Shown here: positions 1 through 64,000 of the stretch, one piece after another
Layout: every line of letters begins with the position of its first letter
Numbering within the stretch: the stretch's first letter is position 1
Assembly (NCBI RefSeq): GCF_013694365.1
Contig: NZ_CP059275.1
Location: 1,302,001-1,366,000 of the forward strand
DNA length: 64,000 nucleotides
Direction: 5' to 3'
From: Limosilactobacillus reuteri
GTDB taxonomy: Bacteria > Bacillota > Bacilli > Lactobacillales > Lactobacillaceae
Translations under genes and position numbers: made by a program
Notes under the pieces: model-generated
Seen by the model: the letters and a program-made list of their open reading frames with translations, nothing else
Told to the model about the DNA's origin: nothing
The model's database searches: none

Positions 1-46
1 TTATAATATTGCCATGGCCGTGAAAATGCTGATTGGCCGTGAGTAA
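1..46 (+). CDS. C-terminal end of an unidentified protein (partial)
   Basis: Only the last 14 codons and a TAA stop (44-46) are inside the window; the peptide ends in MAVKMLIGRE. This is too short to identify. The stop is followed immediately by the ATG of the EcfT gene. In a thiamine-type ECF locus a thiamine or hydroxymethylpyrimidine gene would be a reasonable neighbour, but that is a guess from context only. Confidence 0.5.
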   Translation, partial: YNIAMAVKMLIGRE

Positions 47-700
47 ATGAATCCTAGTTTAAAATTATTACTTGTTATTTTGCTTTCACTTGAGCTGACT
101 TTTGTAACTAAGCTGTGGATTAACCTGATTGTCATTGTAATGTGTTTGCTAATCCTTATTCATCAGCGATTTCACTGGCGACAATTTTGCTGGTTGGCTT
201 TTGTCCCCCTCTTTCCGGCACTAGCTATTTTTATTACAATTGTCTTCTTCAGTCCTAGTCACAGTTTTTTTGATGGAACTGCTCTTTTTAGTCGACTTTA
301 CGTTTATGTCTGCCTTGGAACGGCCTTTACATTTACAACCGATACCTTAACGCTTGCTCGCTCATTAGAACAAAATTGTCACCTTCCTAGCAAATACGCT
401 TATGGGGTGCTCGCCGCTCTTAATCTGATTCCGAAAATGAAACAAGCCGTTACAACTATTTATACGGCCGGACAAATGCGGGGTGTTAATTTACATTGGT
501 GGTCACCAACGCTCTACTTCAAAGCGATTCTGGTTGCTATTCAATGGTCGGATCAATTAGCACAAGCCATGGAATCACGCGGTTTCGTAGAAGGACAAGC
601 ACGAACAGCTACCGTAAATATCCCGATTACCAGCCACGATTGGCTTTCTTTTTTAAGTATTATTTGCCTTGTACAGATAATTGTAATTGCGTTCCCTTGA
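47..700 (+). CDS. ykoC: ECF transporter transmembrane subunit EcfT (YkoC-like)
   Basis: A 217-residue integral membrane protein with hydrophobic segments over about residues 5-38, 48-68, 83-98 and near the C terminus. Two short motifs, AGQMRG (141-146) and AMESRG (174-179), match the paired Ala-Arg-Gly motifs through which EcfT coupling helices contact the ATPases. It would join the fused ATPase and the YkoE-type S component into an uptake complex, probably for thiamine or its HMP precursor. Its first 11 bases (47-57) are identical to the last 11 bases of the ATPase gene (2064-2074). In the source genome the T subunit therefore overlapped and followed the ATPase, the reverse of the order seen here. 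The substrate is inferred from the S component. Confidence 0.8.
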   Translation: MNPSLKLLLVILLSLELTFVTKLWINLIVIVMCLLILIHQRFHWRQFCWLAFVPLFPALAIFITIVFFSPSHSFFDGTALFSRLYVYVCLGTAFTFTTDTLTLARSLEQNCHLPSKYAYGVLAALNLIPKMKQAVTTIYTAGQMRGVNLHWWSPTLYFKAILVAIQWSDQLAQAMESRGFVEGQARTATVNIPITSHDWLSFLSIICLVQIIVIAFP

Positions 701-2074
701 ATGCGATTTAATGATCTTTCATTTAATTTTGATCAGCAACCAATCCTTAAAAATATCACCGCTGAATTTACGGCCGGAAAGATTCACTTACTTACCGGGG
801 TTTCGGGGAGCGGTAAATCCACCATTCTCAAGTTAATCGCTGGTCTCCTGCCTAAATATGGTGGTGAAATAGTTGCGGGAGCAGTCGATGTACCAACAGA
901 TGCCCAAATTGGGATGGTATTTCAAGATCCGTTAATGCAATTTGCCCTTGATACGCCACGCCACGAATTAGAATTCACCCTAGAAAATTGCCAAGTACCA
1001 ACCGACAAAATCCCAGAACGTGTTAAAAAAGCTTTACGATTTGGTAAAGTTGATGATCTTGCTAATCGATTAATCACCACTCTTTCTGGTGGGCAACAGC
1101 AGCGCGTGGCTTTAGCAGCTGCTACGGCAATACAACCAAACGTGCTTTTATTAGACGAACCCTTTGCCAATATTGATGAAGAAAACCGCCAACTTATCCT
1201 TAAACAATTAGTCCGCCTCAGCAGTGACTATCACACAACAATTATCATTACTGACCACGATTTGCATGGTTACGAGCAACTACATCCACTGGTTTGGCAA
1301 TTAACTAAGGGACACCTTGCCCAGCTTTCCAGTAAAAATAGAAACCAACTTTTGACAGCGAGCGCTACTCCTCAAATTACCACTGTCCTTCCCCTGTCAA
1401 CATTGCCCGCGATTATCAAATTTGATGAATTAGCAATAAAACGAGATAATCATTCCTTACTTTTACCAACCAATTTAGGCATTGTTAAAAATAAAATAAC
1501 TTTATTAACGGGACCAAATGGGATTGGTAAATCTACCCTTCTAAAGGCAATTGCCCGGCTTTTGAAATATGAAGGAAAAATTGACTATGAGGGGGAAAAC
1601 ATTCAAAAAATATCACCTGGGAAATATTACAAGCATCTGGGACTAATTTTTCAACATGCAAACGATCAATTCCTAAATGTAACTGTTGGCGAAGAACTGG
1701 CATTAGGCTTTAAAACTTGCCAGAACCCCTATTTTAATCAACAACAAGTCAACGAAGCATTAGCAGCTCTTGGTCTGAACGGAAGAGAAGATCAAGTTGT
1801 TTATTCTTTGAGTGGTGGTCAAAAGAAAAAGCTGCAAATCCTGCTGATGTTAATGCGCGGACAAGAAACCTTATTGCTTGACGAACCATTTACTGGTTTA
1901 GATCCAACATCTTTAAAGACTGTCCTGCAACTAATCAAAGCATCCCAAAAAGAAAAGCCACAAACTTTGTTGATTGTTAGTCATCAATTAAGCGGACTTG
2001 ATGGTTTCATTGATTATCATCTTACAATGAATCATCAACGTCTTAATTATGTTGGAGGGAGTTATGAATCCTAG
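701..2074 (+). CDS. ykoD: ECF transporter fused double ATPase (YkoD-like)
   Basis: A 457-residue protein with two complete ABC ATPase domains. Domain 1 has Walker A GVSGSGKST (33-41), signature LSGGQ (128-132) and Walker B LLLDEP (149-154). Domain 2 has Walker A GPNGIGKST (271-279), LSGGQ (370-374) and LLLDEP (391-396). Fusion of both energising subunits in one chain is typical of the YkoEDC group, whereas most lactobacilli also use a separate EcfA1/EcfA2 pair. The 3' end carries a strong Shine-Dalgarno (GGAGGGAG, about 2054-2061) ahead of an ATG that belongs to the T subunit, now placed upstream at position 47. The protein works on the cytoplasmic face, driving transport with ATP. Confidence 0.87.
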   Translation: MRFNDLSFNFDQQPILKNITAEFTAGKIHLLTGVSGSGKSTILKLIAGLLPKYGGEIVAGAVDVPTDAQIGMVFQDPLMQFALDTPRHELEFTLENCQVPTDKIPERVKKALRFGKVDDLANRLITTLSGGQQQRVALAAATAIQPNVLLLDEPFANIDEENRQLILKQLVRLSSDYHTTIIITDHDLHGYEQLHPLVWQLTKGHLAQLSSKNRNQLLTASATPQITTVLPLSTLPAIIKFDELAIKRDNHSLLLPTNLGIVKNKITLLTGPNGIGKSTLLKAIARLLKYEGKIDYEGENIQKISPGKYYKHLGLIFQHANDQFLNVTVGEELALGFKTCQNPYFNQQQVNEALAALGLNGREDQVVYSLSGGQKKKLQILLMLMRGQETLLLDEPFTGLDPTSLKTVLQLIKASQKEKPQTLLIVSHQLSGLDGFIDYHLTMNHQRLNYVGGSYES

Positions 2075-2635
2075 ATGACTAAACGTTCATTACATTTGCG
2101 TGACATTATTTTGCTTGCCCTAATTGGAATTATTTTTGGTGTAATTTATTTTGCAGCCGGCTTTGTCTATAACGGGCTAACTGTTCTACTGACACCAATT
2201 GGTTATGGTCCAATGGCTAACGATTTAACAATGGGAATCTGGTGTATGGCTGGACCGCTTGCCGGCTTTTTGCTTCGGACACCGGGAGTGGCTTTCCTTG
2301 GTGAGTTTTTGGGAGCCGCCGTTGAAATGCTTCTCGGCGATCAGTGGGGAGCAGCCAACCTAATTTCTGGAGCAGTTCAAGGTATCGGGTCTGAGTTAGG
2401 TTTTACTTTTACGCTTTATAAAATGTATAACTGGTTGACCTTGCTCATCTCATCCCTCACCCTTACATTTGTTACCTTTGGCTGGGATTGGTTCCGCAAT
2501 GGTTATAATCACTTCAGCGGACAAATGCTAATCATTATGCTTATTGCACGCTTCATTTCAATGTTTGTCTTCTCTGGAATTCTGGTTAAATTGATTTCTA
2601 ACCTTCTCCAACGAGCCCACTTAATTAAACACTAA
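2075..2635 (+). CDS. ykoE: ECF transporter substrate-binding S component, YkoE family
   Basis: A 186-residue membrane protein with about five to six hydrophobic segments. It has the YkoE pattern of a conserved PG..FLGEF..A..E block (near residues 69-85) and a G..QGIGSE block (near 105-115). YkoE proteins bind thiamine or its hydroxymethylpyrimidine moiety, usually under thiamine riboswitch control. No riboswitch is visible because no leader sequence is left between this ATG and the previous stop. In the source the S component was probably the first gene of the three. Family assignment is fairly sure; the exact substrate is inferred. Confidence 0.75.
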   Translation: MTKRSLHLRDIILLALIGIIFGVIYFAAGFVYNGLTVLLTPIGYGPMANDLTMGIWCMAGPLAGFLLRTPGVAFLGEFLGAAVEMLLGDQWGAANLISGAVQGIGSELGFTFTLYKMYNWLTLLISSLTLTFVTFGWDWFRNGYNHFSGQMLIIMLIARFISMFVFSGILVKLISNLLQRAHLIKH

Positions 2636-3421
2636 ATGAGTGGAGTAGTTTTTGTTTTATTATTACTGGGAATTGGAATTCTTTCGGGGATTATTAGTGC
2701 AGCCGCTGGTTTAGCATCACTAGTCTCCTATCCTTCACTGCTTGCATTGGGGTTACCGCCAGTGATGGCAAACGTAACGAGTGCTTTTTCGACAGTCACT
2801 GGTAACTATAGTTCGGTCTTTTCATCGTTTAAGGAATTAGAGCATAATCGGCGACAATTATGGATTATTTTGCCATTGGTATTTGCTGGTTCCATTATTG
2901 GGGCTTTTTTGCTATTTGCTGTCCCCAGTAAGTGGTTTGCGGAACTGGTGCCATTATGCATTGCGTTAGCCGGAATTATCTTGTTGTTTCCCCATCATCC
3001 GAAGCAAAGTACAGGGACGATGGCAGGAAACAGTAAATTATTTGGTAAATCACGGATCGGCCAATTTTTATCAATCATTGGTATTTTTATTGTTGGGATT
3101 TATTCCGGCTTCTTTAATGCAGGTGCCGGAGTGTTAATGCTAACCTTGCTGACAGTGATCAATCGGCAAAAGAACTTTGCAGTTAATAATGCGCTAAAAA
3201 ATGTTGCGATGACTGTTACAAATACAACATCCTGGATAGTGTTCGCCCTTGAGACGACAATTTATTGGAATTATGTTATTCCGTTGATGATTGGAAATGT
3301 AATCGGGGGCTACTTAGGACCGATTATTGTTCGCCACCTGCCTGGCCGTCTTATGCAAATAATTGTCGGGATTGGATCATTGATTTTGGCAATTTCATTG
3401 GTAATTCGGAATTTAATGTGA
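2636..3421 (+). CDS. TauE/SafE (UPF0721) family membrane permease
   Basis: A 261-residue protein with about seven to eight predicted membrane helices. It contains the two internally related halves typical of TauE/SafE proteins: GIGILSGIISAAAGLASL near the N terminus and IVGIYSGFFNAGAGVLML in the middle. The glycine- and alanine-rich G.(I/F).G..(S/G)...G.G pattern repeats in each half. Members export or import sulfonates, sulfite or related anions, but the substrate here cannot be told from sequence. It sits between the ECF genes and a broken SDR gene with no obvious functional link. Confidence 0.75.
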   Translation: MSGVVFVLLLLGIGILSGIISAAAGLASLVSYPSLLALGLPPVMANVTSAFSTVTGNYSSVFSSFKELEHNRRQLWIILPLVFAGSIIGAFLLFAVPSKWFAELVPLCIALAGIILLFPHHPKQSTGTMAGNSKLFGKSRIGQFLSIIGIFIVGIYSGFFNAGAGVLMLTLLTVINRQKNFAVNNALKNVAMTVTNTTSWIVFALETTIYWNYVIPLMIGNVIGGYLGPIIVRHLPGRLMQIIVGIGSLILAISLVIRNLM

Positions 3422-3928
3422 GTGGTTAACAACGCGGTAATTGCCGAATACGCCGATGTTGAAAAGACACCTGCTGAAATTTGGGATAAAACAATTGCTG
3501 TTAACCTCACTGGTACAATGTGGGGCACTAAGCTTGGTATTGAAGCAATGAAGAACAACGGGGAAAAGAATTTGATCATCAATATGTCATCCATTGAAGG
3601 ACTAATTGGGGATCCTGATCTCTTTGCCTACAATGCTTCTAAGGGTGGTGTCCGCCTCTTAACTAAATCCGCTGCGCTTGATTGTGCCCGAAAAGGCTAT
3701 GACATCCGCGTAAATACAATTCATCCTGGTTATATCTCAACTCCACTAGTTGATAATTTGGTCAAGGATGATCCAAAAGCAGAAGGACACCTAGAAAGCC
3801 TTCATCCCCTTGGCCGTCTTGGAAAGCCAGAAGAGATTGCTAACCTCGCTTTATACCTTGCCTCAGATGAATCAAGCTTTAGTACTGGTTTGGAATTTGT
3901 CGCTGATGGTGGCTATACGGCTCAATAA
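3422..3928 (+). pseudogene. short-chain dehydrogenase/reductase, C-terminal fragment
   Basis: The 168-residue fragment begins at a GTG and covers the catalytic half of a classical SDR. It includes the NN.. strand (NNAV where NNAG is usual), the active-site Ser in INMSSIEG (about 54-61), the Tyr and Lys of YNASKGG (Y70, K74), and a C terminus ending DGGYTAQ like Lactobacillus R-specific alcohol dehydrogenases. The cofactor-binding N terminus is absent. It is found as a separate 34-codon piece directly downstream (3929-4033), which fits one minus-strand gene broken in the source genome and re-oriented piece by piece. About 45 residues between the pieces are missing. The fragment alone lacks the Rossmann glycine motif, so it should not be active. 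Confidence 0.8.
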
Positions 3929-4033
3929 ATGGGTCGTTTAGATAATAAAGTTGCAATTGTTACTGGTGGTTCTAAAGGAATTGGAGCTGCTGTCGCAAAA
4001 AAGTTTATTGAAGAAGGCGCAAAGGTTGTTTAA
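3929..4033 (+). pseudogene. short-chain dehydrogenase/reductase, N-terminal fragment
   Basis: A 34-codon reading frame carrying the start of a classical [17 protein letters not shown], then the TGGSKGIG cofactor-binding motif (TGxxxGxG, about 12-19), then EEGAKVV and a TAA stop. Right after the stop the sequence changes to an AT-rich stretch with hairpins like IS200/IS605 ends. The break is therefore plausibly an insertion in the SDR gene at codon 34. It pairs with the C-terminal fragment that now precedes it. Neither half is a functional protein as it stands. Confidence 0.8.
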
Positions 4034-4185
4034 ATTTTATCCATAAATTTGCGAGAATCCCCCACTTCTATAAGTAGGGGATGAATCGCTCTCTTAAAGC
4101 ACGTTAGTGCTTTTTCTTTTGTTCTATGATATATTTAGTATATATCTATAAAATGTGGTGATAACAATAGAATTAGATAGAAATC
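4034..4185. mobile_element. non-coding remnant resembling an IS200/IS605 element end
   Basis: A 152-bp non-coding stretch with two hairpins. The first (4059-4080) pairs a run of five C with AAG..GGGG across a CTAT loop, nine pairs with one mismatch. It sits in the context GCGAGAATC...GATGAATCGC, which I recognise from subterminal imperfect palindromes of lactobacillar IS200/IS605 elements. The second is terminator-like. The remainder (4121-4185) is very AT-rich with TATATC and TATAAA tracts. No transposase is present. The stretch starts at the point where the SDR gene breaks and ends where 16S rRNA begins. The family call is by recall of similar ends, not by a search. Confidence 0.5.
4096..4120 (+). 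terminator. Rho-independent terminator-like hairpin
   Basis: AAAGCAC and GTGCTTT form a perfect 7-bp stem around a GTTA loop (4096-4113), followed by a T-rich run to 4120. It lies inside the IS-like remnant and may be the element's own terminal structure instead of a terminator for a neighbouring gene. Confidence 0.5.
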
Positions 4186-5758
<1,573 letters not shown>

Positions 5759-6100
5759 GGCCGATCAGTCTCTCAACTCGGCTATGCATCATCGCCTTGG
5801 TAAGCCGTTACCTTACCAACTAGCTAATGCACCGCAGGTCCATCCCAGAGTGATAGCCAAAGCCATCTTTCAAACAAAAGCCATGTGGCTTTTGTTGTTA
5901 TGCGGTATTAGCATCTGTTTCCAAATGTTATCCCCCGCTCCGGGGCAGGTTACCTACGTGTTACTCACCCGTCCGCCACTCACTGGTAATCCATCGTCAA
6001 TCAGGTGCAAGCACCATCAATCAGTTGGGCCAGTGCGTACGACTTGCATGTATTAGGCACACCGCCGGCGTTCATCCTGAGCCAGGATCAAACTCTCATA
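5759..6100 (-). rRNA. rrs: second 16S rRNA copy, 5' part only, antisense
   Basis: This is the reverse complement of the first 342 bases of a 16S gene, joined tail to tail to the complete copy. By direct comparison it differs from 4186-4527 at four positions: G4283 to T, C4298 to T, T4398 to C and G4400 to A. All four lie in the variable V1/V2 part, so this is a genuine second rrn copy, not a duplicate of the first. It continues without a break past its 5' end into its own leader and promoters (6101-6497). A 99-codon reading frame from TTG at 5757 to 6056 is only the antisense of rRNA and is not a gene. Confidence 0.93.
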
Positions 6101-6280
6101 TAAAATATATAAGAACTTGAATAGCTCTCAATTATCTTTGTTATTAAGCGAATTGACTTCGCAAATGTTTTGCTTCAAATCACATCGTGATTGAAGACCC
6201 TACACATTTGATTCGTCGAAACTTTGTTCAGTTTTCAAAGGTCTACCTGTCGGCTAATTAAGTAGCCAATCAACATCTAC

Positions 6281-6310
6281 ATTATATCATGTATCAGATT
6301 AACTTGTCAA
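6281..6310 (-). promoter_or_regulatory. rrn promoter nearest the 16S gene
   Basis: On the minus strand there is a TTGACA -35 (6305-6310) and a perfect TATAAT -10 (6281-6286), separated by 18 bp. It lies about 180 bp upstream of the antisense 16S start, as expected for the proximal promoter of tandem rrn promoters. Confidence 0.85.
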
Positions 6311-6371
6311 GAAGAAATTTTAAATTATTTTTCAATTTCTTTTGATCGATAACTCAATCAGCAACTCTATT

Positions 6372-6400
6372 AATATATCATGTTGCCAAGTCGATGTCAA
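6372..6400 (-). promoter_or_regulatory. rrn promoter, middle
   Basis: On the minus strand there is a TTGACA -35 (6395-6400) and a TATATT -10 (6372-6377) with the ideal 17-bp spacer. It lies about 90 bp upstream of the proximal promoter. Confidence 0.8.
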
Positions 6401-6464
6401 CAATTATTTTAACTTTTTTATTAAACCATCTCAATAGCACTTAGCTGTTTTGACAACGATAACT

Positions 6465-6493
6465 ACTATACATGGATTTCATTCTTTCGTCAA
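6465..6493 (-). promoter_or_regulatory. rrn promoter, distal
   Basis: On the minus strand there is a TTGACG -35 (6488-6493) and a TATAGT -10 (6465-6470) with a 17-bp spacer. Spacing between the three promoters is regular, about 90 bp. This promoter occupies the stretch that a longer tyrS reading frame from TTG at 6450 would claim as coding, which argues against that longer start. Confidence 0.65.
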
Positions 6494-6497
6494 CACC

Positions 6498-7748
6498 ATG
6501 GATATTCTTAATGAACTAGAATGGCGTGGGGCTATTAACCAAGTTACAGACGAAGAAGGCCTACGCAAATTAACATCAGAAGATAAAATTGCTCTTTACT
6601 GTGGAACTGATCCAACCGGGGATAGTCTTCATATTGGACACTTAATTCCATTTATGATTTTGAAACGATTTCAATTAGCTGGCCACCATCCAGTAATTAT
6701 TATTGGGGGAGGAACTGGTGCAATTGGTGATCCATCCGGTCGAAAGTCAGAACGGCAACTTCAAACCATGGATCAAGTTCACCACAACGAAGAAGCATTA
6801 ACTGCTCAAATGAAGAAGTTGTTCGGCACTGAAAACTTCACGATTGTAAATAACTATGAATGGTTATCAAAGATCAGCTTGTTAGACTTTCTTCGTGACT
6901 ACGGTAAACTATTTAATATCAACACCATGTTAAATAAGGAAGTAGTAGCAAGCCGGTTAGATGCTGGTATTTCATTTACTGAGTTCACTTATCAAATTCT
7001 TCAATCAGTCGATTTCCTTCATCTTTACCGTCACAATGATGTGCAATTACAGATTGGCGGCTCCGATCAATGGGGAAATATCACTGCCGGAATTGATTTG
7101 ATTCATAAGGTTGAAGGACCAGATACTAAGGTTTACGGACTTACTATTCCATTAATGCTCAAAGCTGATGGAACTAAATTTGGAAAGACCGCGGGTGGTG
7201 CAATTTGGCTTGATCCAGAAAAGACCTCTCCATACGAATTTTATCAATTCTGGATTAACCAAGATGACCGTGACGTTATTAAATACTTGAAGTACTTCAC
7301 TTTCTTATCAAAGGAAGAAATTGATGACTTGGCAGAAAAAGTTGAGAAGGAACCATGGAAGCGAGAGGCTCAACGTCGCTTAGCCCAAGAAGTAACTAAA
7401 TTTGTTCATGGCCAAGAAGCAGTTGAAGAAGCAGAACGGATTAGTAAAGCATTGTTCTCTGGGGATGTTACTGACCTTTCTGTTGCAGAAATTGAACAAG
7501 GCTTTAAGAATATGCCTTCAGTAGATGTAGAAAATAAGAAAGAAAATATTGTTTTATGGTTAACCGATAATGGCATTGAATCTTCACGTCGCCAAGCTCG
7601 GCAAGATGTATCGAGTGGAGCTATCAGGATTAATGGGGAAAAAGTTGATGATGTTGACGCCGAGATTGATCCCCAAGCACATTTTGATGGTAAGTTTGTG
7701 ATTGTTCGCAAGGGTAAGAAGCACTATTACTTAGCTCGCGTAAAATAA
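6498..7748 (+). CDS. tyrS: tyrosyl-tRNA synthetase
   Basis: Class I aminoacyl-tRNA synthetase that charges tRNA-Tyr in the cytoplasm, 416 residues from the ATG at 6498. It has the HIGH motif in DSLHIGHLIPF (45-48), a KMSKS-like KFGKT loop (near residue 230) and a C-terminal S4 RNA-binding domain (about 350-416). The frame stays open upstream to a TTG at 6450, but those 16 extra codons lie in the distal rrn promoter and do not resemble TyrRS N termini, so 6498 is preferred. No Shine-Dalgarno precedes this ATG. No T-box leader is present, although tyrS in Firmicutes is often T-box controlled; it would have been lost. Confidence 0.95.
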   Translation: MDILNELEWRGAINQVTDEEGLRKLTSEDKIALYCGTDPTGDSLHIGHLIPFMILKRFQLAGHHPVIIIGGGTGAIGDPSGRKSERQLQTMDQVHHNEEALTAQMKKLFGTENFTIVNNYEWLSKISLLDFLRDYGKLFNINTMLNKEVVASRLDAGISFTEFTYQILQSVDFLHLYRHNDVQLQIGGSDQWGNITAGIDLIHKVEGPDTKVYGLTIPLMLKADGTKFGKTAGGAIWLDPEKTSPYEFYQFWINQDDRDVIKYLKYFTFLSKEEIDDLAEKVEKEPWKREAQRRLAQEVTKFVHGQEAVEEAERISKALFSGDVTDLSVAEIEQGFKNMPSVDVENKKENIVLWLTDNGIESSRRQARQDVSSGAIRINGEKVDDVDAEIDPQAHFDGKFVIVRKGKKHYYLARVK

Positions 7749-9485: not shown

Positions 9486-10745
9486 ATGGAAAAGCAGGTC
9501 AACGTATTAGTTGTAGGTGAAGGCGGTCGTGAATTTGCCGTGGCGAAAAAATTACAAGAAAGTCCCCGTGTTAAGCAAGTTTATTGTGCGCCAGGCAACG
9601 TGGGGATGTCGACTGTAGGAGTAGTTCCCATTGCAATTGCGGAAACTGACTTTGCTAAGCTGATTCAATTTGCTAAAGAACATAATGTTGCGTGGACATT
9701 CGTGGGCCCTGAGGATTGTTTGGTTGATGGGATTGTTGATGAATTTAAGGCCGCTGGATTAAAGGTTTTTGGTCCTGATGCGCGGGCTGCCCAATTAGAA
9801 GGCTCGAAAGACTATGCCCTTAATTTTATGAATAATTATCACGTTCCCACTGCCCGCCATGCGACATATCGGGATCAAACAGCAGCGATTAATAACGTTG
9901 GGCAATTTGGCTTTCCAGTAGTAATTAAAGAAAATGGTTTAGCTGGAGGAAAAGGGGTTGTCATTGCAAAAGATCGTGCAGAAGCAATTAAGACAATCAA
10001 AGAAATGTTTGTCAATGGTCAGGCGCGCCTTGTGATTGAAGAATGTCTATCAGGTCCTGAATATTCAATGTTTGTTTTGATTAGTAATGGCCACTACCGA
10101 ATTTTGCCCATGGCTCAAGACCACAAACGAGCATTTGATGACGATAAAGGTCCTAATACTGGGGGGATGGGGGCTTATAGTCCCTTGCCACAACTTTCCT
10201 CAGCCGTTCGTCAACAGATGATTGATGAAGTACTTAAGCCAACAATTGATGGTTTGGTGGCTGGCGAGTATCACTACCATGGGATTTTATATATTGGCCT
10301 TATTTTGACTGATAATGGTCCAAAAGTGATTGAATATAATGTTCGTCTAGGTGATCCAGAGACCCAGGTGATTTTGCCCCGCATGAAAACCGACTTGTTC
10401 GAACTTGTAGACGCAGCAATTAATGATCGACCATTACCAGAAGTTGAAGAAAATGAAGATGCTTGTTTTGGTGTTGTTTTGGCATCGAAAGGGTATCCAA
10501 CTAAGCCAATCCACGGCCAAAAGCTGGGAACATTTCCAGTTGATCCTAATGTTACTATTGATTACGCAAATGTTGCTGGAACAATTAATGACTTAAAAGG
10601 TGCAGGTGGACGTTTACTAATGGTGATCGGGAAAGATGATTCTCTTCAAAAAGCCCGCGATCACGTTTATGGCTACTTGCGCCAGCTTGATGAACCTGAA
10701 TGTTTTTATCGTCATGATATTGGTGCAAAAGCTGGACTGCAATAA
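9486..10745 (+). CDS. purD: phosphoribosylamine-glycine ligase (GAR synthetase)
   Basis: A 419-residue ATP-grasp ligase, step 2 of IMP synthesis, joining glycine to phosphoribosylamine. N-terminal Rossmann-like motif NVLVVGEGGREFAV; FVGPEDCLVDGI near 74-85; ATP-grasp glycine loop ENGLAGGKGVVI near 147-158; metal-binding RLGDPETQV near 287-295. It is normally the last gene of the lactobacillar pur operon, yet here it comes first, followed by purH. Confidence 0.96.
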   Translation: MEKQVNVLVVGEGGREFAVAKKLQESPRVKQVYCAPGNVGMSTVGVVPIAIAETDFAKLIQFAKEHNVAWTFVGPEDCLVDGIVDEFKAAGLKVFGPDARAAQLEGSKDYALNFMNNYHVPTARHATYRDQTAAINNVGQFGFPVVIKENGLAGGKGVVIAKDRAEAIKTIKEMFVNGQARLVIEECLSGPEYSMFVLISNGHYRILPMAQDHKRAFDDDKGPNTGGMGAYSPLPQLSSAVRQQMIDEVLKPTIDGLVAGEYHYHGILYIGLILTDNGPKVIEYNVRLGDPETQVILPRMKTDLFELVDAAINDRPLPEVEENEDACFGVVLASKGYPTKPIHGQKLGTFPVDPNVTIDYANVAGTINDLKGAGGRLLMVIGKDDSLQKARDHVYGYLRQLDEPECFYRHDIGAKAGLQ

Positions 10746-12284
10746 ATGAAAAGAGCATTAGTAAGCGTTTCTGATAAGCAAAACCTGGTCCCATTCGTTA
10801 AAGGATTAGTTGAAAATGGTTTTGAAATTATCTCGACTGGTGGGACGAAGCGGGTTTTAGATGAAGCGGGAATTGAAACAATTGGGATTGAGGATGTTAC
10901 TCATTTTCCGGAAATTCTTGATGGCCGCGTAAAGACTCTTAACCCATACGTCCATGGGGGACTATTGGCTCGCCGGGACTTACCAGAACACATGGCGACC
11001 CTCGAAAAACTTAATATTACGCCAATCGATTTAGTCTGTGTTAATCTTTATCCATTTAAAGAGACGATCGAAAAGCCGGGAGTGGAATTAGCCGATGCAA
11101 TTGAAAATATTGATATTGGTGGTCCTAGCATGGTCCGCTCAGCTGCTAAAAACTATCATGATGTAACAATCGTGGTGGACCAAGCCGATTACGATGAAGT
11201 CTTAGCCCAGATCAAAGAAGATGGTGAAACATCATTAGCAACTCGAGCACGCTTAGCAGCGAAAGCCTTTCGTCATACGGCAGCCTATGATTCCCTCATC
11301 TCTCAATACCTTACAAAACAGACAGGGCTTGAAGATCCAGAAAAATTAACTTTAAGCTGGGATTTAAAAGAAACAATGCGTTATGGTGAAAATAGTCACC
11401 AAAAGGCTTGGTTATATGAAGACGCGCTTCCTAAGGCTTTTTCAGTTTTACAGGCTAAACAATTACATGGTAAGAAGCTTTCCTACAATAATATTAAAGA
11501 TGCTGATGAAGCATTACGGTGCATTCGCGAATTTGATGAACCAACAGTTGTAGCGATGAAACATATGAACCCATGTGGCATTGGCCGAGGGGATAGTTTG
11601 GTTCAAGCTTGGGATCGTGCCTATGAAGCTGACCCTGTTTCTATTTTTGGGGGAGTGATTGCTCTTAATCGGCAAGTTGATTTAGCTACCGCCGAGAAAA
11701 TGCACAAAATCTTTTTAGAAATTGTCATTGCACCCGGCTTTGACGATGATGCATTTGAGTTATTGGCAAAGAAGAAAAATATTCGTTTGTTGAGTCTGGA
11801 CTTTAGTAAGAAGGATGAACCAACTAAACATGAAGTTGTTTCAGTGATGGGTGGAATGTTGTTGCAGGAACAAGACACGCTTAAGGAAGATTACCACGAC
11901 TGGCAATGTGTTACTGAAAAGCAACCAACAGAGGAACAGCTTAAGACATTAATGTTTGCCTGGAAAGCAGTTAAGCATGCCAAATCAAATGCGATTGTCT
12001 TAGCAAATGATGAGCGGACATTAGGGGTCGGAGAAGGTCAACCTAACCGAATTGATTCATTGAAAATTGCCGTAAAACATGCTGGCGAGGCGATTGATGA
12101 CCGGACAGTGATGGCATCGGATGCTTTCTTCCCATTTGGTGATTGTGTTGAATATGCGGGTCAAAATGGCATTAAGGCGATTGTTCAGCCAGGAGGATCA
12201 ATTCGCGATCAAGAATCAATTGAGATGGCAAATAAGTACGGAATTGCAATGGTCACAACAGGCATTCGTCATTTCCGCCATTAA
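10746..12284 (+). CDS. purH: bifunctional AICAR transformylase / IMP cyclohydrolase
   Basis: A 512-residue protein catalysing the last two steps to IMP. The N-terminal MGS-like cyclohydrolase domain (about 1-195) has [13 protein letters not shown] and DGRVKTLNP. The C-terminal transformylase domain has KHMNPCGIG near residue 265 and [10 protein letters not shown] near 480. It uses 10-formyl-THF, which the fhs product in this window can supply. Length matches the family (about 510). Confidence 0.97.
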
Positions 12285-12857
12285 ATGAGAGTCGCAATTT
12301 TAGCATCAGGAAACGGAACGAATTTTGAAGTCTTAGCACAGCACTTCAAAAATAATGATCTTCCTGGTGAATTAGCATTACTATTCTGTAATCATCCAGA
12401 TGCTCCGGTAATGAAAAGAGCTGCCCGACTGGGGATTCCGGCAGAAAGCTTTACGGTCAAATCTTGTGGGGGAAAACAGGAATACGAGGAAAAATTATTG
12501 GGAGTGTTGAAAAAGTATCAAATTGACTTTATTGCCCTTGCTGGTTATTTACGAGTAATTGGGCCCACTATTTTGGATCATTATGCTCACCAAATTATTA
12601 ACCTTCATCCAGCATGGTTGCCAGAATATCCGGGACTACATTCGATTGAACGGGCATTTGCTGATCAACAAGCCCAGACAGGCGTCACCGTACACTATAT
12701 TGATGCGGGACTCGATTCCGGCCCAATTATCGCCCAGGAACACGTCCCAATTTTACCAACTGATACTATTGAAACCTTAGAAGCACGGGTTCATGAAACT
12801 GAGCATCGGTTATATCCTGAAGCACTAAAGCAGGCATTAGAAAAGGAGCAACATTAA
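12285..12857 (+). CDS. purN: phosphoribosylglycinamide formyltransferase (GAR transformylase)
   Basis: A 190-residue folate-dependent formyltransferase, step 3 of IMP synthesis. Phosphate-binding ASGNGTNFE (7-15), catalytic His in INLHPAWLPEYPG near 105, catalytic Asp in DAGLDSGPIIAQE near 141-146. Its last codons contain AAAAGGAGCAAC, a Shine-Dalgarno that fits the purH start. PurH natively follows purN but stands before it here. Confidence 0.96.
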   Translation: MRVAILASGNGTNFEVLAQHFKNNDLPGELALLFCNHPDAPVMKRAARLGIPAESFTVKSCGGKQEYEEKLLGVLKKYQIDFIALAGYLRVIGPTILDHYAHQIINLHPAWLPEYPGLHSIERAFADQQAQTGVTVHYIDAGLDSGPIIAQEHVPILPTDTIETLEARVHETEHRLYPEALKQALEKEQH

Positions 12858-13895
12858 ATGAGTCGTTATCAAGATGCAGGGGTGGATGTAAATGCCGGGT
12901 ACGAACTTGTTCACCGTATTAAAGATGCAGTCAAATCAACTGATCGCCCAGGTGTGATTGGGGGAATTGGCAGCTTTGGGGGGATGTTTGACTTAGAAAA
13001 ATTACAGGTACGGCATCCGGTCCTTGTCTCTGGCACTGATGGTGTGGGAACGAAACTCTTAATTGCCCAACAAATGAATAAGCACGATACAATCGGGATC
13101 GATGTTGTCGCAATGTGCGTTAATGATGTCTTGGCGCAGGGAGCGGAACCAATAACATTTCTCGACTACATTGCGACCGGCCATAATGATCCGGCTAAGA
13201 TGGCAGCGATTGTTAGCGGAGTAGCGACTGGTTGCCGAGAAGCTGGAGCCACTTTAATTGGTGGAGAAACAGCAGAAATGCCAGATATGTATGCAGCCAA
13301 TGAGTATGACCTGGCAGGAACAGTAACAGGGATAGCAGAAAAAGAAGAACTTCTTACCGCTGCTGGACCGCAAAAAGGTGATATTTTACTTGGCCTCCCA
13401 TCAAGTGGCTTGCATTCCAATGGCTTTTCCCTTGTCCGGCAGATCTTATTTAAGGATAATCACGTCAAATTAACTGATCGCCCAGAAGCCTTGAGAGGAA
13501 AGACGGTAGGAGAAACGATTCTGACTCCTACTAGGATTTATGTTCAAGCGGTCTTGCCATTAGTCCATCGCAAATTGGTTCATGGGATTAGCCATATTAC
13601 TGGTGGAGGATTGATTGAAAATGTTCCCCGGATGTTAGGAGATAACTTGCAAGCGGTGATTGATCCTGGTCGGTGGCCACAGCTTCCGGTCTTTGACTAT
13701 TTGCGGGTGCTAGGAGGCCTTACTAAGGAAGATTGTTTCGAAGCATTTAACATGGGAATAGGAATGGTCTTAGCAGTAGCACCAGATCAAGTAGCACAAG
13801 TTCAAGAGATACTATCAAATAAAAACATGACAAGTTATCAAATTGGTTATCTTCGTCATTGTTTACCAGATACAAAAAAGATTGTTATCAAGTGA
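12858..13895 (+). CDS. purM: phosphoribosylformylglycinamidine cyclo-ligase (AIR synthetase)
   Basis: A 345-residue ATP-dependent ligase forming aminoimidazole ribotide, step 5. IGGIGSFGGMFD near 34-45, GTDGVGTKLLIA near 58-69, GGETAEMPDMYA near 136-147, and SGLHSNGFSL near 182-191 are all family hallmarks. It belongs to the same superfamily as PurL. The TGA stop abuts the GTG start of purF. Confidence 0.96.
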   Translation: MSRYQDAGVDVNAGYELVHRIKDAVKSTDRPGVIGGIGSFGGMFDLEKLQVRHPVLVSGTDGVGTKLLIAQQMNKHDTIGIDVVAMCVNDVLAQGAEPITFLDYIATGHNDPAKMAAIVSGVATGCREAGATLIGGETAEMPDMYAANEYDLAGTVTGIAEKEELLTAAGPQKGDILLGLPSSGLHSNGFSLVRQILFKDNHVKLTDRPEALRGKTVGETILTPTRIYVQAVLPLVHRKLVHGISHITGGGLIENVPRMLGDNLQAVIDPGRWPQLPVFDYLRVLGGLTKEDCFEAFNMGIGMVLAVAPDQVAQVQEILSNKNMTSYQIGYLRHCLPDTKKIVIK

Positions 13896-18260: not shown

Positions 18261-18509
18261 ATGGTCAATGTTCGGATTTTCGTAACATATAAGCAATCAG
18301 TCTTTGATCCGCAGGGAGAAACAATTAAGGATGCGATCCATTCTCTAGGTCATGATGAAGTAACTGCCGTTAAAGTTGGAAAATTCTTTGACGTTACCTT
18401 GGATACAAATGAGGATGAGGTAGCAACGGCAGTAAAAGAAATTGCCGATCAGCTCCTTGTTAATTTCAATATGGAAACTTATACATACCAAGTTATGGAG
18501 GAAGCCTAG
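18261..18509 (+). CDS. purS: phosphoribosylformylglycinamidine synthase subunit PurS
   Basis: An 82-residue small subunit that bridges PurL and PurQ for ammonia transfer. It begins MVNVRIFVTYKQSVFDPQG and includes the family pattern DP.G.....A...LG near residues 15-32. Length is normal for the family (about 80-85). GTTATGGAGGAAGCC at the 3' end is a ribosome binding site for purQ. Confidence 0.95.
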   Translation: MVNVRIFVTYKQSVFDPQGETIKDAIHSLGHDEVTAVKVGKFFDVTLDTNEDEVATAVKEIADQLLVNFNMETYTYQVMEEA

Positions 18510-44889: not shown

Positions 44890-44898
44890 CCCCTCAAG

Positions 44899-54614: not shown

Positions 54615-54968
54615 ATGAGAAAATCATATCGCGTAAAAAAGGAAAGTGAGTTTCAACGGGTTTTTGAAACCCATAATTCCGTGGCCAACCACAAATTTGT
54701 CGTATATCAAATGGAAAAACCAGGACAAAAACATTTTCGTGTCGGTATTTCTGTTGGAAAAAAGATTGGAAATGCTGTGCATCGTAATTGGGTTAAGCGG
54801 CGTATTCGTCAAACATTATTAGAGGTGAAACCGCAATTACGGTCTGATGTTGATTTCTTGGTTATTGCTCGGTCAGCGGCAGATGGTTTATCAATGGCAG
54901 AAACAAAGAAAAACCTAGTGCACGTTTTAAAGCGAGCACATTTGTTAGATGAAAAAAGTGAGGATTAG
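54615..54968 (+). CDS. rnpA: ribonuclease P protein component
   Basis: A 117-residue basic protein that assists the RNA subunit of RNase P in tRNA 5' maturation. [38 protein letters not shown] (about 51-70, the RNR-type central motif) are diagnostic. GAAAAAAGTGAGGATTAG at its 3' end holds a weak Shine-Dalgarno likely meant for yidC, the native next gene. Confidence 0.96.
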
Positions 54969-55103
54969 ATGAAGCGCACGTTTCAACCAAAGAAGCGTCA
55001 CCGTGCACGTGTCCATGGCTTCCGTAAGCGCATGAGCACCAGTAACGGCCGTAAGGTATTAGCACGTCGGCGTCAAAAGGGCAGAAAAGTATTATCTGCA
55101 TAA
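54969..55103 (+). CDS. rpmH: ribosomal protein L34
   Basis: A 44-residue protein, [20 protein letters not shown], then [20 protein letters not shown] and LSA. Sequence and length are exactly typical of bL34. It lies between rnpA and dnaA as in all Firmicutes, where it is natively transcribed away from dnaA. Here it reads toward dnaA. Confidence 0.97.
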
Positions 55104-55120
55104 ATGAATTTACACAACGC

Positions 55121-55129
55121 TGTGGATTA
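55121..55129 (-). promoter_or_regulatory. DnaA-box-like 9-mer
   Basis: The minus strand reads TAATCCACA, one mismatch from the consensus TTATCCACA. It is a single box, so it is not an origin by itself, but its location beside rpmH and dnaA fits a remnant of oriC. Confidence 0.5.
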
Positions 55130-55198
55130 TTTTGCTAATTTTGTTAATAATCAAAAAAATTTAAATAAAAATTCGCCGTTTATTAATTTCGGTAAGTG

Positions 55199-55207
55199 TG
55201 TTATACT
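55199..55207 (+). promoter_or_regulatory. extended -10 promoter element before dnaA
   Basis: TGTTATACT contains TGn followed by TATACT, a good extended -10. The -35 position (about 55179-55184, TTTATT) is weak, as is common for extended -10 promoters. It faces dnaA, but only 16 bp separate it from the TTG start with no ribosome binding site, so sequence between them has probably been lost. Confidence 0.5.
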
Positions 55208-55223
55208 ACCAAAGTATGTTTGA

Positions 55224-56546
55224 TTGACTGAGCTCGATTCTCTGTGGGAAGCGATCCAAAATTCATTTCGTCAGGATACCACTCCGGTTACCTTTGACAC
55301 TTTGATTGCTCCGGCAAAAGCAATTTCTCTCTCTCAAAATCAACTGGAAATCGAGGTGCCCACTCCGGTGCACCGCGATTTTTGGCGCAAAAATTTAAAT
55401 ACACAGCTTAAAGAATTCGCTCAACATGAATTGGGACGTAATATTGAGCCGCATTATATTTTAGAGGGAGAATTTACCTATACAAATAAAAAAACAGAAG
55501 ATGATCCAACTCCTTCTTTTGAGATGGACACTCCTCTTAATCCTCATTACAACTTTGGAACATTCGTTGTTGGAGAAGGAAATAAAATGGCACACGCTGC
55601 AGCATTTGCCGTTGCCGAAAGTCCGGGCAGCCTTTACAACCCGCTCTTTATTTATGGGGGGGTTGGTTTAGGAAAAACCCACTTAATGGAAGCGATCGGT
55701 AACCATATGCTTCAAGTTAATCCAAATTCGCGTGTCAAATATGTGACGAGTGAGGATTTTACCAACGATTATATTAATGCTATTCGTAATAATACGACTG
55801 AACAATTAAGAGAAGAATATCGTAACCTTGATCTCCTATTAATTGATGATATTCAATTTTTAGCCAACAAAGAGGGAACACAGCTAGAATTTTTCAATAC
55901 TTTTAATGCCCTTCATGATCGCAAAAAACAAATTGTTATGACATCTGATCGGATTCCAAATGAGATTCCCGAACTGCAAGACCGGCTTGTATCACGTTTC
56001 AGATGGGGACTTACTGTCGAAATTACTCCTCCTGACTTAGAGACGAGAATTGCCATCTTGCGGAGTAAAGTTGAGGAAGATCATATTGATATTGGAAACG
56101 ACACCCTTAATTATATCGCTGGCCAAATCGATACAAACATTCGTGAACTAGAAGGAGCCTTAACAAAGGTTCAAGCATTTGCTAATTTAAGCGGTGAGCG
56201 AATCACGCCAAGCTTAGCATCTCAAGCATTAAAGGGACTTCACCGCATAGCCAAAAACGAAATATCAATCGCTACAATTCAAAAACAAGTCGCTGATTTT
56301 TATAATATAACTCAAGGAGATATCCTTGGTAAAAAGCGAGTTAAACAAATTGTTATGCCTCGCCAAATCGCTATGTATCTTTCTCGAGAACTCACCGATT
56401 CCTCGTTGCCAAAAATCGGCAACGAATTCGGCGGCAAAGACCATACCACCGTTTTACATGCTATCGATAAAATCGAGGCAGAACTAAAAAAGGATACTGA
56501 CTTACAAAACGATATTACAAAATTAAAAGCTAAACTACGATCATAA
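55224..56546 (+). CDS. dnaA: chromosomal replication initiator DnaA
   Basis: A 440-residue AAA+ initiator starting at TTG. N-terminal DnaB/SirA-interacting domain (1-80), Walker A GGVGLGKTHL (near 147-156), Walker B LLLIDDIQFL near 208-217, and the C-terminal DNA-binding signature GKDHTTVLHAIDKI (near 407-420) in domain IV. It is the first gene of the native forward set dnaA-dnaN-yaaA-recF-gyrB-gyrA-rpsF-ssb. Confidence 0.97.
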   Translation: MTELDSLWEAIQNSFRQDTTPVTFDTLIAPAKAISLSQNQLEIEVPTPVHRDFWRKNLNTQLKEFAQHELGRNIEPHYILEGEFTYTNKKTEDDPTPSFEMDTPLNPHYNFGTFVVGEGNKMAHAAAFAVAESPGSLYNPLFIYGGVGLGKTHLMEAIGNHMLQVNPNSRVKYVTSEDFTNDYINAIRNNTTEQLREEYRNLDLLLIDDIQFLANKEGTQLEFFNTFNALHDRKKQIVMTSDRIPNEIPELQDRLVSRFRWGLTVEITPPDLETRIAILRSKVEEDHIDIGNDTLNYIAGQIDTNIRELEGALTKVQAFANLSGERITPSLASQALKGLHRIAKNEISIATIQKQVADFYNITQGDILGKKRVKQIVMPRQIAMYLSRELTDSSLPKIGNEFGGKDHTTVLHAIDKIEAELKKDTDLQNDITKLKAKLRS

Positions 56547-57689
56547 ATGAATTTTACAATTAACCGATCTGCATTCATTAGTCAACTAAATAATGTCTTA
56601 CGTGCCATTTCATCTAAAACCACAATTCCAATTCTTACTGGATTAAAGATGGTCATAAACGAAGACAACATTGTGTTAACTGGTAGCAATTCTGACATCA
56701 CTATTGAAAGTGTTATTAATGCTAATGATGCTGAGAACGATTTAACAATTGAAGCCACTGGCGCTATTGTATTACCAGCCCGCTTCTTCAGTGATATTGT
56801 TAAAAAGCTGCCAGACAAAAAAGTAACTATTGAAGTTACAAGTGGTTTTCAAGCAGATATTACTTCCGGTTCAGCTAAGTTTCAAATTAATGGCCAAGAT
56901 GCTGAAAACTTTCCTCATTTACCAGAAATTGAAACTAACAAATCAGTAACCCTTCCTAACGACATCCTTAAAGAAGTAATTCGTCAAACTGTTATTGCGG
57001 TATCTAAGCAAGAAAGTCGCCCAATCCTTGCCGGGGTGCATATGACGTTAAAAGATGGCGTCCTAACAGCTGTTGCAACAGATAGTCATCGACTTGCACA
57101 ACGGAAAGTGGTCCTCGAAAACATCGATAACAGCATAGATTTTGATGTGATTATTCCTGGAAAGAGCATGGAAGAACTTTCTGGAATGATTAGCGATGTC
57201 CATGAAGATGTACAAATGCAAGTAACCGAAAATCAAGTATTGTTTATTTTTGGTAATACTCATTTCTATTCGCGATTACTAGAAGGGAACTATCCTGAAA
57301 CAAGCCAGTTAATTCCACAAACTGCTGATACAACAGTTGAACTAGAAGCTGGGACATTTCTATCATCAATTGAGCGTGCTTCGCTTTTATCTCATGAAAG
57401 CCGTAATGATGTGGTTAAGTTAAGTCTAAAGCCATCAGAAAGTCTTGTCCGAATTAGTGGTGATTCTCCAGATATCGGTACCGTTGAAGAAAAGGTAGTC
57501 ACGTCTGCTCTTGATGGTAATGATCTTGAAATCTCGTTCAATCCTAACTACATGAAAGATGCTTTGCGTTCTTTTGGTCAGGCAACGATCAAGATTTCAT
57601 TTACTTCACCATTGCGACCATTTACCTTGGTGCCAACAGAAGATCAAGAAAACTTTGTCCACTTAATTACACCAGTACGGACATTCTAA
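56547..57689 (+). CDS. dnaN: DNA polymerase III beta subunit (sliding clamp)
   Basis: A 380-residue protein with the three-domain clamp pattern: MNFTINRSAFISQLNNVLRAIS start, TTIPILTGLKM near 28-38, ESRPILAGVHM near 156-166, and SFTSPLRPFTLVPTEDQENFVHLITPVR at the C terminus. The dnaA-dnaN spacer, normally over 100 bp with DnaA boxes in this group, is zero bases here. Confidence 0.97.
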   Translation: MNFTINRSAFISQLNNVLRAISSKTTIPILTGLKMVINEDNIVLTGSNSDITIESVINANDAENDLTIEATGAIVLPARFFSDIVKKLPDKKVTIEVTSGFQADITSGSAKFQINGQDAENFPHLPEIETNKSVTLPNDILKEVIRQTVIAVSKQESRPILAGVHMTLKDGVLTAVATDSHRLAQRKVVLENIDNSIDFDVIIPGKSMEELSGMISDVHEDVQMQVTENQVLFIFGNTHFYSRLLEGNYPETSQLIPQTADTTVELEAGTFLSSIERASLLSHESRNDVVKLSLKPSESLVRISGDSPDIGTVEEKVVTSALDGNDLEISFNPNYMKDALRSFGQATIKISFTSPLRPFTLVPTEDQENFVHLITPVRTF

Positions 57690-57911: not shown

Positions 57912-59036
57912 ATGATTCTGACGGAATTGCATTTACATCACTTTCGAAATTATCAGGATCTAACCGTTCACTTCAACCCTGGAGTGAACGTTTTAATTGG
58001 TCATAATGCACAGGGTAAAACGAATATGCTAGAGGCAATCTATGTTCTTTCCCTGACCAAGAGTCATCGAACAAGTAATGACCATGAACTTATTAATTGG
58101 CAAGAAAAATCAGCTCTAATAAGTGGCACAGTAGAGAAAAGTATTGGCAAGATTCCACTTGAATTACAATTCTCAAGTAAAGGAAAAAAGGCAAAGGTAA
58201 ATCATTTAGAACAAGCGCGATTATCACAGTATGTTGGTCAACTAAATGCAATATTATTTGCTCCTGAGGACTTGTCGTTGGTAAAAGGGTCCCCAGCTTT
58301 ACGGCGCCACTTTATGGATCGAGAATTTAGCCAGATGAGTAGCAAGTATCTCTACAATGCAGGCCAATACCGCACACTCTTACGACAAAAAAACAAATAT
58401 TTAAAGCAACTAAAATATAAGCAACAAACTGATCGCGTCCTTTTAGGAGTCCTATCTGATCAGCTTGCTGCTTTTGGTGCGGAAGTAATTATTGCCCGTC
58501 AACATTTTTTAAAGCACCTTGAAGGATGGGCAGCTGATTTACATCAAGAGATTTCACTGAATAAGGAATCATTACAGCTTGAATACGTTAATCAATTAAA
58601 GGTTAATGATGAGACTACTGCTGAAGAGGCTTATCAGGCCCTTTTTAAATTATATCAAGACAACGAACAGCGTGAAATTGAGCAGGGGACAACAATTTAC
58701 GGCCCCCATCGTGATGATATCCGCTTTCTGGTAAATGATAAAAATGTACAGGCTTTTGGATCGCAAGGACAACAGCGAACGACAGCACTATCAGTAAAGC
58801 TAGCAGAGATTGATTTGATGAAAGAGCAAACAGGCGAGTATCCATTATTATTATTGGACGATGTGTTATCGGAACTAGATACAATTCGACAAACACACCT
58901 GTTAACAGCCATTCAGAATAAAGTTCAAACATTTTTGACGACAACTAGTTTGAGTGATGTTGCTCGCCAGCTAATTAATGAACCCACGATTTTTGAAATT
59001 GAGCACGGCACTTTGAATAAGGAGGAAGTAAAGTGA
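57912..59036 (+). CDS. recF: DNA replication and repair protein RecF
   Basis: A 374-residue SMC-like ATPase that helps load RecA at gaps. Walker A IGHNAQGKTNMLEAI (near 31-45), signature FGSQGQQRTTALSVKLAE near 282-299, Walker B LLLLDDVLSELD near 314-325. The 3' end AAGGAGGAAGTAAAGTGA contains a strong Shine-Dalgarno. The last four bases GTGA are repeated as the first four of gyrB, showing the native 4-bp overlap written twice. Confidence 0.96.
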   Translation: MILTELHLHHFRNYQDLTVHFNPGVNVLIGHNAQGKTNMLEAIYVLSLTKSHRTSNDHELINWQEKSALISGTVEKSIGKIPLELQFSSKGKKAKVNHLEQARLSQYVGQLNAILFAPEDLSLVKGSPALRRHFMDREFSQMSSKYLYNAGQYRTLLRQKNKYLKQLKYKQQTDRVLLGVLSDQLAAFGAEVIIARQHFLKHLEGWAADLHQEISLNKESLQLEYVNQLKVNDETTAEEAYQALFKLYQDNEQREIEQGTTIYGPHRDDIRFLVNDKNVQAFGSQGQQRTTALSVKLAEIDLMKEQTGEYPLLLLDDVLSELDTIRQTHLLTAIQNKVQTFLTTTSLSDVARQLINEPTIFEIEHGTLNKEEVK

Positions 59037-60986
59037 GTGAGCAACGAACAACAAAAAGAAACCAAGATGGAATTGGCTAGCGAATACGATGCTAGTCAAA
59101 TTCAGGTTTTAAAGGGATTGGATGCAGTTCGAAAGCGTCCCGGAATGTACATTGGTTCCACTTCAGCCCAGGGACTTCATCACCTTGTTTGGGAAATTGT
59201 CGATAACGGAATTGATGAAGCCTTAGCAGGATTCTGTGATGAAATTAATGTTGTAGTTAATCCAGATAACAGTATTACTGTTAAGGATAATGGTCGTGGA
59301 ATTCCAGTTGATACGCAAAAAGAAACTGGAAAGTCAGCCTTAGAAACGGTCTTTACTGTTCTGCACGCCGGAGGAAAATTTGGCGGCGGCGGATATAAGG
59401 TTTCTGGAGGTCTTCACGGGGTAGGGGCTTCTGTTGTAAATGCCTTATCTACTGAATTAGATGTTAAAGTTGCTCGTCAAGGTAAACGTTACTACATGGA
59501 TTTTGATCATGGTCATGTTAAGTCTGCAATGAAGGTAATTGAAGAAGGACTTCCAGAAACTGAGCATGGTACAACCGTTCACTTTAAGCCGGATCCAGAA
59601 ATTTTCCGTGAAACAACGACTTACAATATTAAAACTTTAACTGATCGTTTAAGAGAGTTAGCTTTCTTAAATAAGGGACTTAAAATCACGATCGAAGACT
59701 TACGAGAAATAGATCATGAACGGAAAGAATTCCATTATGAAGGTGGTATTCGTCATTATGTTGAATACCTTAATGAAGATCAAAATGTTTTATTTGATCC
59801 ACCAATTTACGTGGAAGGTAAAGAAAATGATATTACTGTTGAAGTTTCCTTACAATATACAGATTCATATCGTAGCAACTTACTAACTTTTACTAACAAT
59901 ATTCATACTTATGAAGGTGGAACTCATGAGACCGGATTTAAGATGGCTCTTACACGCGTTATTAATGACTACGGCCACAAAGCAGGTATTTTAAAGTCGA
60001 ATGAGACCTTATCAGGAGATGACGTACGGGAAGGTTTAACTGCTGTTGTCTCCATTAAGCACCCTGATCCGCAATTCGAGGGACAGACTAAGACTAAGTT
60101 AGGAAATTCAGATGCACGAACAGCGACTGACCATGTCTTTGCGGCAACATTTAACCGGTTCTTATTAGAACACCCAGACGAAGCGCGGCAAATTATTGAA
60201 AAAGGTCAACTCGCTTCCAAAGCAAGAGTGGCTGCTAAACGGGCACGGGAAGTTACTCGTAAAAAGAGTGGTCTTGAAATTAGCAATTTGCCAGGTAAGT
60301 TAGCTGATAACACGAGTAAGGATCCTGAAATTTCAGAATTATTTATTGTCGAAGGGGATTCTGCCGGTGGATCAGCAAAGCAGGGACGTTCGCGACTCAC
60401 CCAGGCAATCCTTCCAATTCGAGGAAAGATCTTGAATGTTGAAAAAGCAACCCTTGATCGAGTTCTAGCTAATGACGAAATTCGTTCTCTATTTACCGCT
60501 CTTGGAACAGGTTTTGGAGATGACTTTGATATTACAAAGGCTAATTACCATAAATTGATTATCATGACTGATGCGGATGTCGATGGTGCCCACATTCGGA
60601 CATTACTGTTAACCTTGTTCTACCGCTTTATGAAACCAATGATTACGCATGGGTATGTTTATATTGCCCAACCGCCGCTATATCAAGTTCGGCAAGGTAA
60701 ATTTGTAAAATACATTGACTCTGATGAAGAACTAGAGCAGGTTGTAAGCTCACTGCAGCCAAGTCCTAAGCCAGTTATTCAACGTTACAAAGGGCTAGGT
60801 GAAATGGATGCTGAGCAATTATGGGAAACAACAATGGACCCAGAAAATCGGCACCTATTACGAGTAAAACTAGACGACGCAGAACAGGCTGATAAGATTT
60901 TCCCAATGCTAATGGGAACCAAGGTCGGACCACGGCGCGACTTTATTGAGCAAAATGCTAAGTTCGTTGAAAACCTTGACCTGTAA
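59037..60986 (+). CDS. gyrB: DNA gyrase subunit B
   Basis: A 649-residue GHKL ATPase/TOPRIM protein starting at [23 protein letters not shown] near 31-50, [10 protein letters not shown] near 53-62, [26 protein letters not shown] (about 111-136), [19 protein letters not shown] near 440-452 and [15 protein letters not shown] near 513-527. Length is normal. Confidence 0.97.
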
Positions 60987-63476: not shown

Positions 63477-63773
63477 ATGGAAACACGCAAATATGAAATT
63501 ACTTACATCATTCGTCCTGATATCGAAGAATCTGCAAAGAGCGAATTGGTAGACCGATTCGACAAGATCTTGGCGGACAATGGTGCAACTATCGCTGACT
63601 CAAAGGATTGGTCAACTCGTCGTTTTGCTTACCCAATCGCTAAGTACACTGAAGGTACTTACCACGTGGTAAACTTAACTACTGATTCAGACCAAGCTTT
63701 AAACGAATTTGATCGTTTAGCTAAGTTCAGTGATGATATCCTACGTCACATGATTGTTAAGCTTGATGCTTAA
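63477..63773 (+). CDS. rpsF: ribosomal protein S6
   Basis: A 98-residue protein, [19 protein letters not shown] start, [20 protein letters not shown] near 43-62, and [12 protein letters not shown] at the end. Length and sequence are normal for bS6. The usual ribosomal operon continues with ssb and rpsR. Confidence 0.96.
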
Positions 63774-64000
63774 ATGCTTAATCGTGCAGTCTTAACTGGG
63801 CGTTTAACAAGAGATCCCGAGTTGCGGTACACAACCAGCGGGACGGCTGTTGTTTCATTTACGTTAGCTGTTGATCGGCAATTCCGAAACCAAAATGGTG
63901 ATCGTGATGCTGACTTTATCAATTGCGTTATTTGGCGTAAATCCGCTGAAAACTTTAGTAACTTTACGCATAAGGGTTCACTTGTTGGAATTGAAGGGCG
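63774..64000 (+). CDS. ssb: single-stranded DNA-binding protein, N-terminal part (cut by window end)
   Basis: The first 75 codons of an [35 protein letters not shown] near 27-38, [16 protein letters not shown] near 46-61 and [10 protein letters not shown] at the edge. This is the OB-fold that coats single-stranded DNA in replication. The acidic C-terminal tail lies beyond the window. Confidence 0.95.

Follow-up and report, generated by a model that had tools for sequence, protein, structure and literature searches.

The reference relative for this locus is Limosilactobacillus reuteri WF-AA1-C (assembly G037, which contains locus L017; three contig stretches were used), in which neighbouring genes are spaced in the mixed fashion that the original prediction, made from the letters alone, had named as natural. 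Spacings were obtained for 52 neighbouring pairs; after the two pairs of a dispersed repeat had been dropped, the remaining 50 ranged from -25 to +520 bp (median 43.5) and comprised 2 zero spacings, 8 overlaps and 40 gaps (24 of them of at least 50 bp), with 5 changes of strand. In WF-AA1-C, dnaA diverges from the genes on its rpmH side, again as had been supposed. A known system of a different kind is the feature export of the RAST/RASTtk type, which we take to emit repeat regions longer than 100 bp and not to emit RNase P RNA or tmRNA, a behaviour that fits the record considered here.

The window, i.e., the whole stretch of 64,000 nt that was analysed, is G000:C1:1302001-1366000 of a single-contig record of 2,085,667 bp with a completeness of 100%. 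Neither the mixed spacing nor the mixed strands of close relatives were found in it. We hold, with a probability of about 0.985, that the record is a computer-made string of joined annotated features, a data artefact and no real chromosome. The joining itself is demonstrated by several observations: zero spacing, a single strand, normal spacing in relatives, overlaps and repeats written twice, and the loss of intergenic RNAs and origin boxes. The layout of the window says nothing about biology, and the genes that we looked at are in no way out of the ordinary for the genus.

Table. Units of the window discussed in the text. Protein gene names are putative, being our reading of the translations; the names of 16S, 5S, tRNA and group II intron features come from searches.
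Feature	Position	Strand	Remark
Joined chain of annotated features without intergenic DNA	1..64000	+	
EcfT-like	47..700	+	first 11 bases are the last 11 of 701-2074 (native overlap in both genes)
EcfA-like ATPase	701..2074	+	neighbour order reversed relative to native
EcfS-like	2075..2635	+	native gap 13 bp
Exporter-like membrane protein	2636..3421	+	natively on opposite strand, gaps 264 bp and 62 bp
SDR-like gene in two pieces, 3' piece first, then 5' piece	3422..4033	+	144 bp apart in relative
147-bp repeat piece	4034..4180	.	copies in L104 and, partly, L110
16S rRNA gene	4181..5756 (boundary +/-2; match 4183-5758)	+	next unit adjoins directly
741-bp unit: inverted 16S 5' end and leader	5757..6497	+	boundary putative
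tyrS-like	6498..7748	+	
pur genes D, H, N, M, F, L, Q, S, C, B, K, native order reversed, each in sense	9486..21650	+	native spacing 225 to -25 bp
First 25 bases of purF	13896..13920	+	identical to last 25 of purL
Last 25 bases of purL	17555..17579	+	second copy of native overlap
cfa-like gene	31686..32861	+	natively on strand opposite to preceding gene
pyrE, F, D, C, B, order reversed	34167..38690	+	4, 4 and 1 natively overlapping bases stand in both neighbours
Group II intron 5' fragment, 137 bp	40773..40909	.	copy in L102
184-bp repeat unit	40910..41093	.	identical to 42999-43182; inverted inside 41094-42998
Surface-protein-like gene	41094..42998	+	boundary inferred from repeat
184-bp repeat unit, second emission	42999..43182	.	
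116-bp dispersed repeat as own unit	44890..45005	.	
rnpA, rpmH and 39-codon frame	54615..55223	+	natively on strand opposite to dnaA
dnaA and dnaN	55224..57689	+	
recF and gyrB	57912..60986	+	native 4-bp overlap GTGA written twice

All nine junctions at which a stop codon had been reported to run directly into the next start proved to be boundaries of consecutive plus-strand frames in a list of 145 open reading frames of the window. From this list, 59 long frames were picked by hand as the main plus-strand chain, and 51 of its 58 junctions have a spacing of 0 bp. The claim of zero spacing at practically all junctions stands for these 51, but the other seven stretches (35-2521 bp) are occupied by small frames, by 16S rRNA or by pieces of repeats, with no ordinary spacer among them; the complete small frames include 30522-30650 and rpmH at 54969-55103. 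These stretches were split by hand, with putative limits for the non-coding units, after which 57,486 of the 64,000 bases fall in 62 frames that are complete from start to stop. Scored as other than complete frames were 11 units: two cut by the window ends, the 16S gene, six repeat-type pieces, a partial CDS, and tyrS, the last only through a boundary set one base off (its ATG is at 6498).

The density of zero-spaced junctions exceeds chance. Counting, on both strands, stop codons followed directly by a start codon where both open frames had 40 codons or more gave 57 on the plus and 1 on the minus strand in the window, as against 3 and 1 in 62 kb of natural WF-AA1-C. The corresponding counts were 37 and 8 in 299 kb of loci L001-L018 (Limosilactobacillus/Lactobacillus), 44 and 56 in 994 kb of L019-L080, and, for another four genomes of the genus, 4 and 6 in 80 kb. 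Loci L001-L018 were fetched by a pur gene, so that natural zero gaps of the pur operon may raise their count, and they are not fully independent of WF-AA1-C, in that L017 is part of it. The idea that so uniform a zero spacing is unnatural is thus upheld by the natural counts, with the reservation that purQ/purS and purS/purC have zero spacing in nature too.

If the record is a joined set of features, its units should align singly to a natural genome, and this is what the proposed alignment to L. reuteri returned: 57 of 72 units were placed one by one in the three stretches of one assembly, WF-AA1-C, at 88-100% nucleotide identity, and where the record joins them the relative shows gaps, overlaps and strand flips. 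Order is kept within three blocks, which correspond to contigs C16 (window 1-4033, reversed), C27 (6498-40772, reversed) and C32 (44017-64000, forward); the dispersed repeat at 44890 is an exception, having its best match elsewhere. The 15 units without a match in the fetched stretches are 4034-4180, the 16S gene, its inverted copy, thrB, hom, thrC, two AraC-like pieces, budA, alsS, ribB, and four units in 40773-44016. The segment 22137-26462, between purE and fhs, contains thrB-hom-thrC and the two AraC-like pieces, to which no match was listed in WF-AA1-C (best 40 of 47 candidates) or in genome G038 (best 40 of 61); it is perhaps a strain-specific insertion. The adjoining budA and alsS occur, among the matches listed, in G038 and not in WF-AA1-C.

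A further mark of separately extracted units is that native overlaps are written in both neighbours, as was observed for 7 of the 8 tested: 25 bases for purL/purF, 11 for ecfA/ecfT, 8 for purE/purK, 4 each for pyrF/pyrE, pyrD/pyrF and recF/gyrB, and 1 for pyrC/pyrD, the short ones being weak evidence when taken singly. Double writing did not occur in the eighth, orf42/AI2E, whose native coordinate had been extrapolated from a match covering 70%. Whole units also recur. In L111 (G000:C1:2015800-2018400) a tRNA-Gly/tRNA-Leu pair appears first with 16 nt between the genes and, a short way on, with a spacer of 0, both copies of each tRNA being letter-identical; identical copies, one inverted and one in sense, also exist for two tRNAs in L112 and for two tRNAs plus a 5S gene in L113. 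The two 184-bp units of the window are identical as well, with an inverted occurrence inside the gene between them. The inverted 16S 5' end (match 5737-6050 on the minus strand) is 98.8% like 4186-4528, and the final portion of the unit that contains it corresponds to the sequence past tyrS with which natural contig C27 ends. This unit also carries an apparent rRNA leader beside the 16S 5' end and is among the few natural non-coding pieces left in the window.

Unannotated elements that lie between genes are absent from the whole record. No match to RNase P RNA (RF00011) was found in it, all 29 candidates having been scored, while the RNA is present in 8 of 8 other genome handles (7 distinct genomes, since G020 = G038) and in 294 of 295 genomes sampled from the order (completeness of at least 98, stricter filters), the sole miss being this record. 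T-boxes are represented by one match, below the cut-off, vs. 26-32 per other genome. There was no tmRNA match over the cut-off in the record, a weaker item, because natural genome G008 has none either; the other seven handles each have one. Searching for the DnaA box pattern TTWTNCACA gave 4 boxes in the 494 bp between rpmH and dnaA and 3 in the 175-bp dnaA-dnaN gap of WF-AA1-C, and 0 in the window from rpmH to yaaA.

Sites for ribosome binding are depleted: an SD-like match of at least 4 bases precedes 18 of 44 starts in the window vs. 39 of 44 in WF-AA1-C, and one of at least 5 bases precedes 11 vs. 29, with a background at random window positions of 18% and 4%, respectively. The 44 starts are the 57 placed units minus 13 whose starts were incomplete or doubtful (tail, two SDR pieces, tyrS, orf42, AI2E, pyrD, lysR, two GNAT pieces, dispersed repeat, unit at 45006, and 39-codon frame); ecfA was kept, although in the relative ATA aligns with its start. 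At least part of the surplus over background arises because gene tails carry the native SD of another gene: the 20 nt preceding purC in the window are those preceding purQ in WF-AA1-C.

The arrangement extends over the record, of which about 197 kb beside the window were fetched and the remainder was covered by searches. Fifteen stretches of 12 kb spread along it contain 164 zero junctions on the plus and 10 on the minus strand in 180 kb, and the two 6-kb flanks of the window contain 15 and 0; features abut on one strand in the window and in these stretches alike. The fewest among the 15 stretches, 2, occur in the last 12 kb (L110, G000:C1:2073668-2085667). Numerous short fragments are repeated in that terminal region, some in one direction and some in the other; they are of mobile-element, surface-repeat and group II intron types. 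In other parts of the record the chain also includes tRNAs and 5S genes, and at least 81 tRNA matches, inverted copies among them, were obtained from the best 150 of 180 candidates. The dispersed repeat at 44890-45005 is about 116 bp long and partly self-complementary; it has at least 27 matches in the record, eight of which are short and lie on the other strand of copies already listed, and more than 30 among the matches listed in WF-AA1-C.

A synthetic compact genome, with spacers removed by design, could in principle follow a rule of single strand and uniform zero spacing. A working design would, however, keep origin boxes, ribosome binding sites and essential RNAs, and the record has neither RNase P RNA nor DnaA boxes at dnaA; moreover, no design is served by inverted copies of 16S, tRNA and 5S genes, by broken genes whose pieces form units of their own, or by a 12-kb tail of short fragments that recur. 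For lack of RNase P RNA and origin boxes we agree with the original prediction in ranking a designed genome lower, and we consider it extremely unlikely, as we do a deliberately spacer-free genome that was designed as an exercise on the computer and then stored as a chromosome. That a natural genome has undergone extreme loss of intergenic DNA would suit a single contig of 100% completeness, but is extremely improbable: the mapped genes are 88-100% identical to those of a normally spaced relative, overlaps are written twice, RNase P RNA is missing, and one tRNA pair stands with and without its spacer in one place.

There is also the question of what was joined. The original prediction spoke of coding sequences, extracted, turned to sense and concatenated in map order. 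Extraction and joining are borne out by the twice-written overlaps, the zero-spaced tRNA pair beside its spaced copy, and the fact that RNase P RNA, T-boxes and DnaA boxes have been lost; the restriction to coding sequences is not, because tRNAs, rRNAs and repeat pieces were joined too. Complete frames do make up most of the window, as a concatenation of CDSs alone or a pan-genome gene list would have it, but the tRNA matches in the record, the 16S and repeat units in the chain and the map order kept over three blocks speak against this version, which we regard as very unlikely.

A joined string of all annotated features accordingly remains our reading of the record. What had been annotated in the genome of a gut Lactobacillus of L. 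reuteri type, namely CDSs, tRNAs, rRNAs and repeat regions, was cut out in map order, the genes were turned to their coding strand, and the whole was joined without separator and stored as one chromosome-like contig, whereby intergenic DNA was lost. The source was probably a multi-contig draft, because two units look like contig ends: the inverted 16S end, and the surface-protein-like unit 41094-42998, which has no stop codon if its inferred boundary is right (the frame continues to 43064). Three genes, SDR-like (3422-4033), AraC-like (25767-26462) and GNAT-like (44017-44283), each seem to be divided into two units, as if pieces of pseudogenes had been annotated separately. Because repeat pieces of more than 100 bp were emitted (147, 741, 137, 184, 184 and 116 bp) while RNase P RNA and tmRNA are absent, the exporter may have been of the RAST type.

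The importance of these results is one of data hygiene. The record stands in a one-genome-per-species collection with full completeness despite its lost RNase P RNA and origin boxes, presumably because completeness scores rest on genes and are blind to the loss of intergenic DNA. Analyses of operons, promoters, ribosome binding sites, riboswitches or origins that use the record will be wrong. A missing RNase P RNA, which singled out this record among 295 genomes, may serve as a simple screen.

Set beside known systems, the record and natural WF-AA1-C are alike in 57 of 72 units and in their order inside the three blocks, whereas natural spacers, overlaps, strand changes, RNase P RNA, T-boxes and tmRNA belong to WF-AA1-C only. 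Unlike a feature-FASTA export, the record has no headers left and forms a single contig. With a concatenated export of presumed RAST/RASTtk type the record nevertheless shares the lack of RNase P RNA and tmRNA, separate entries for repeats of more than 100 bp, the inclusion of tRNAs and rRNAs, map order, sense orientation, and overlaps that are repeated.
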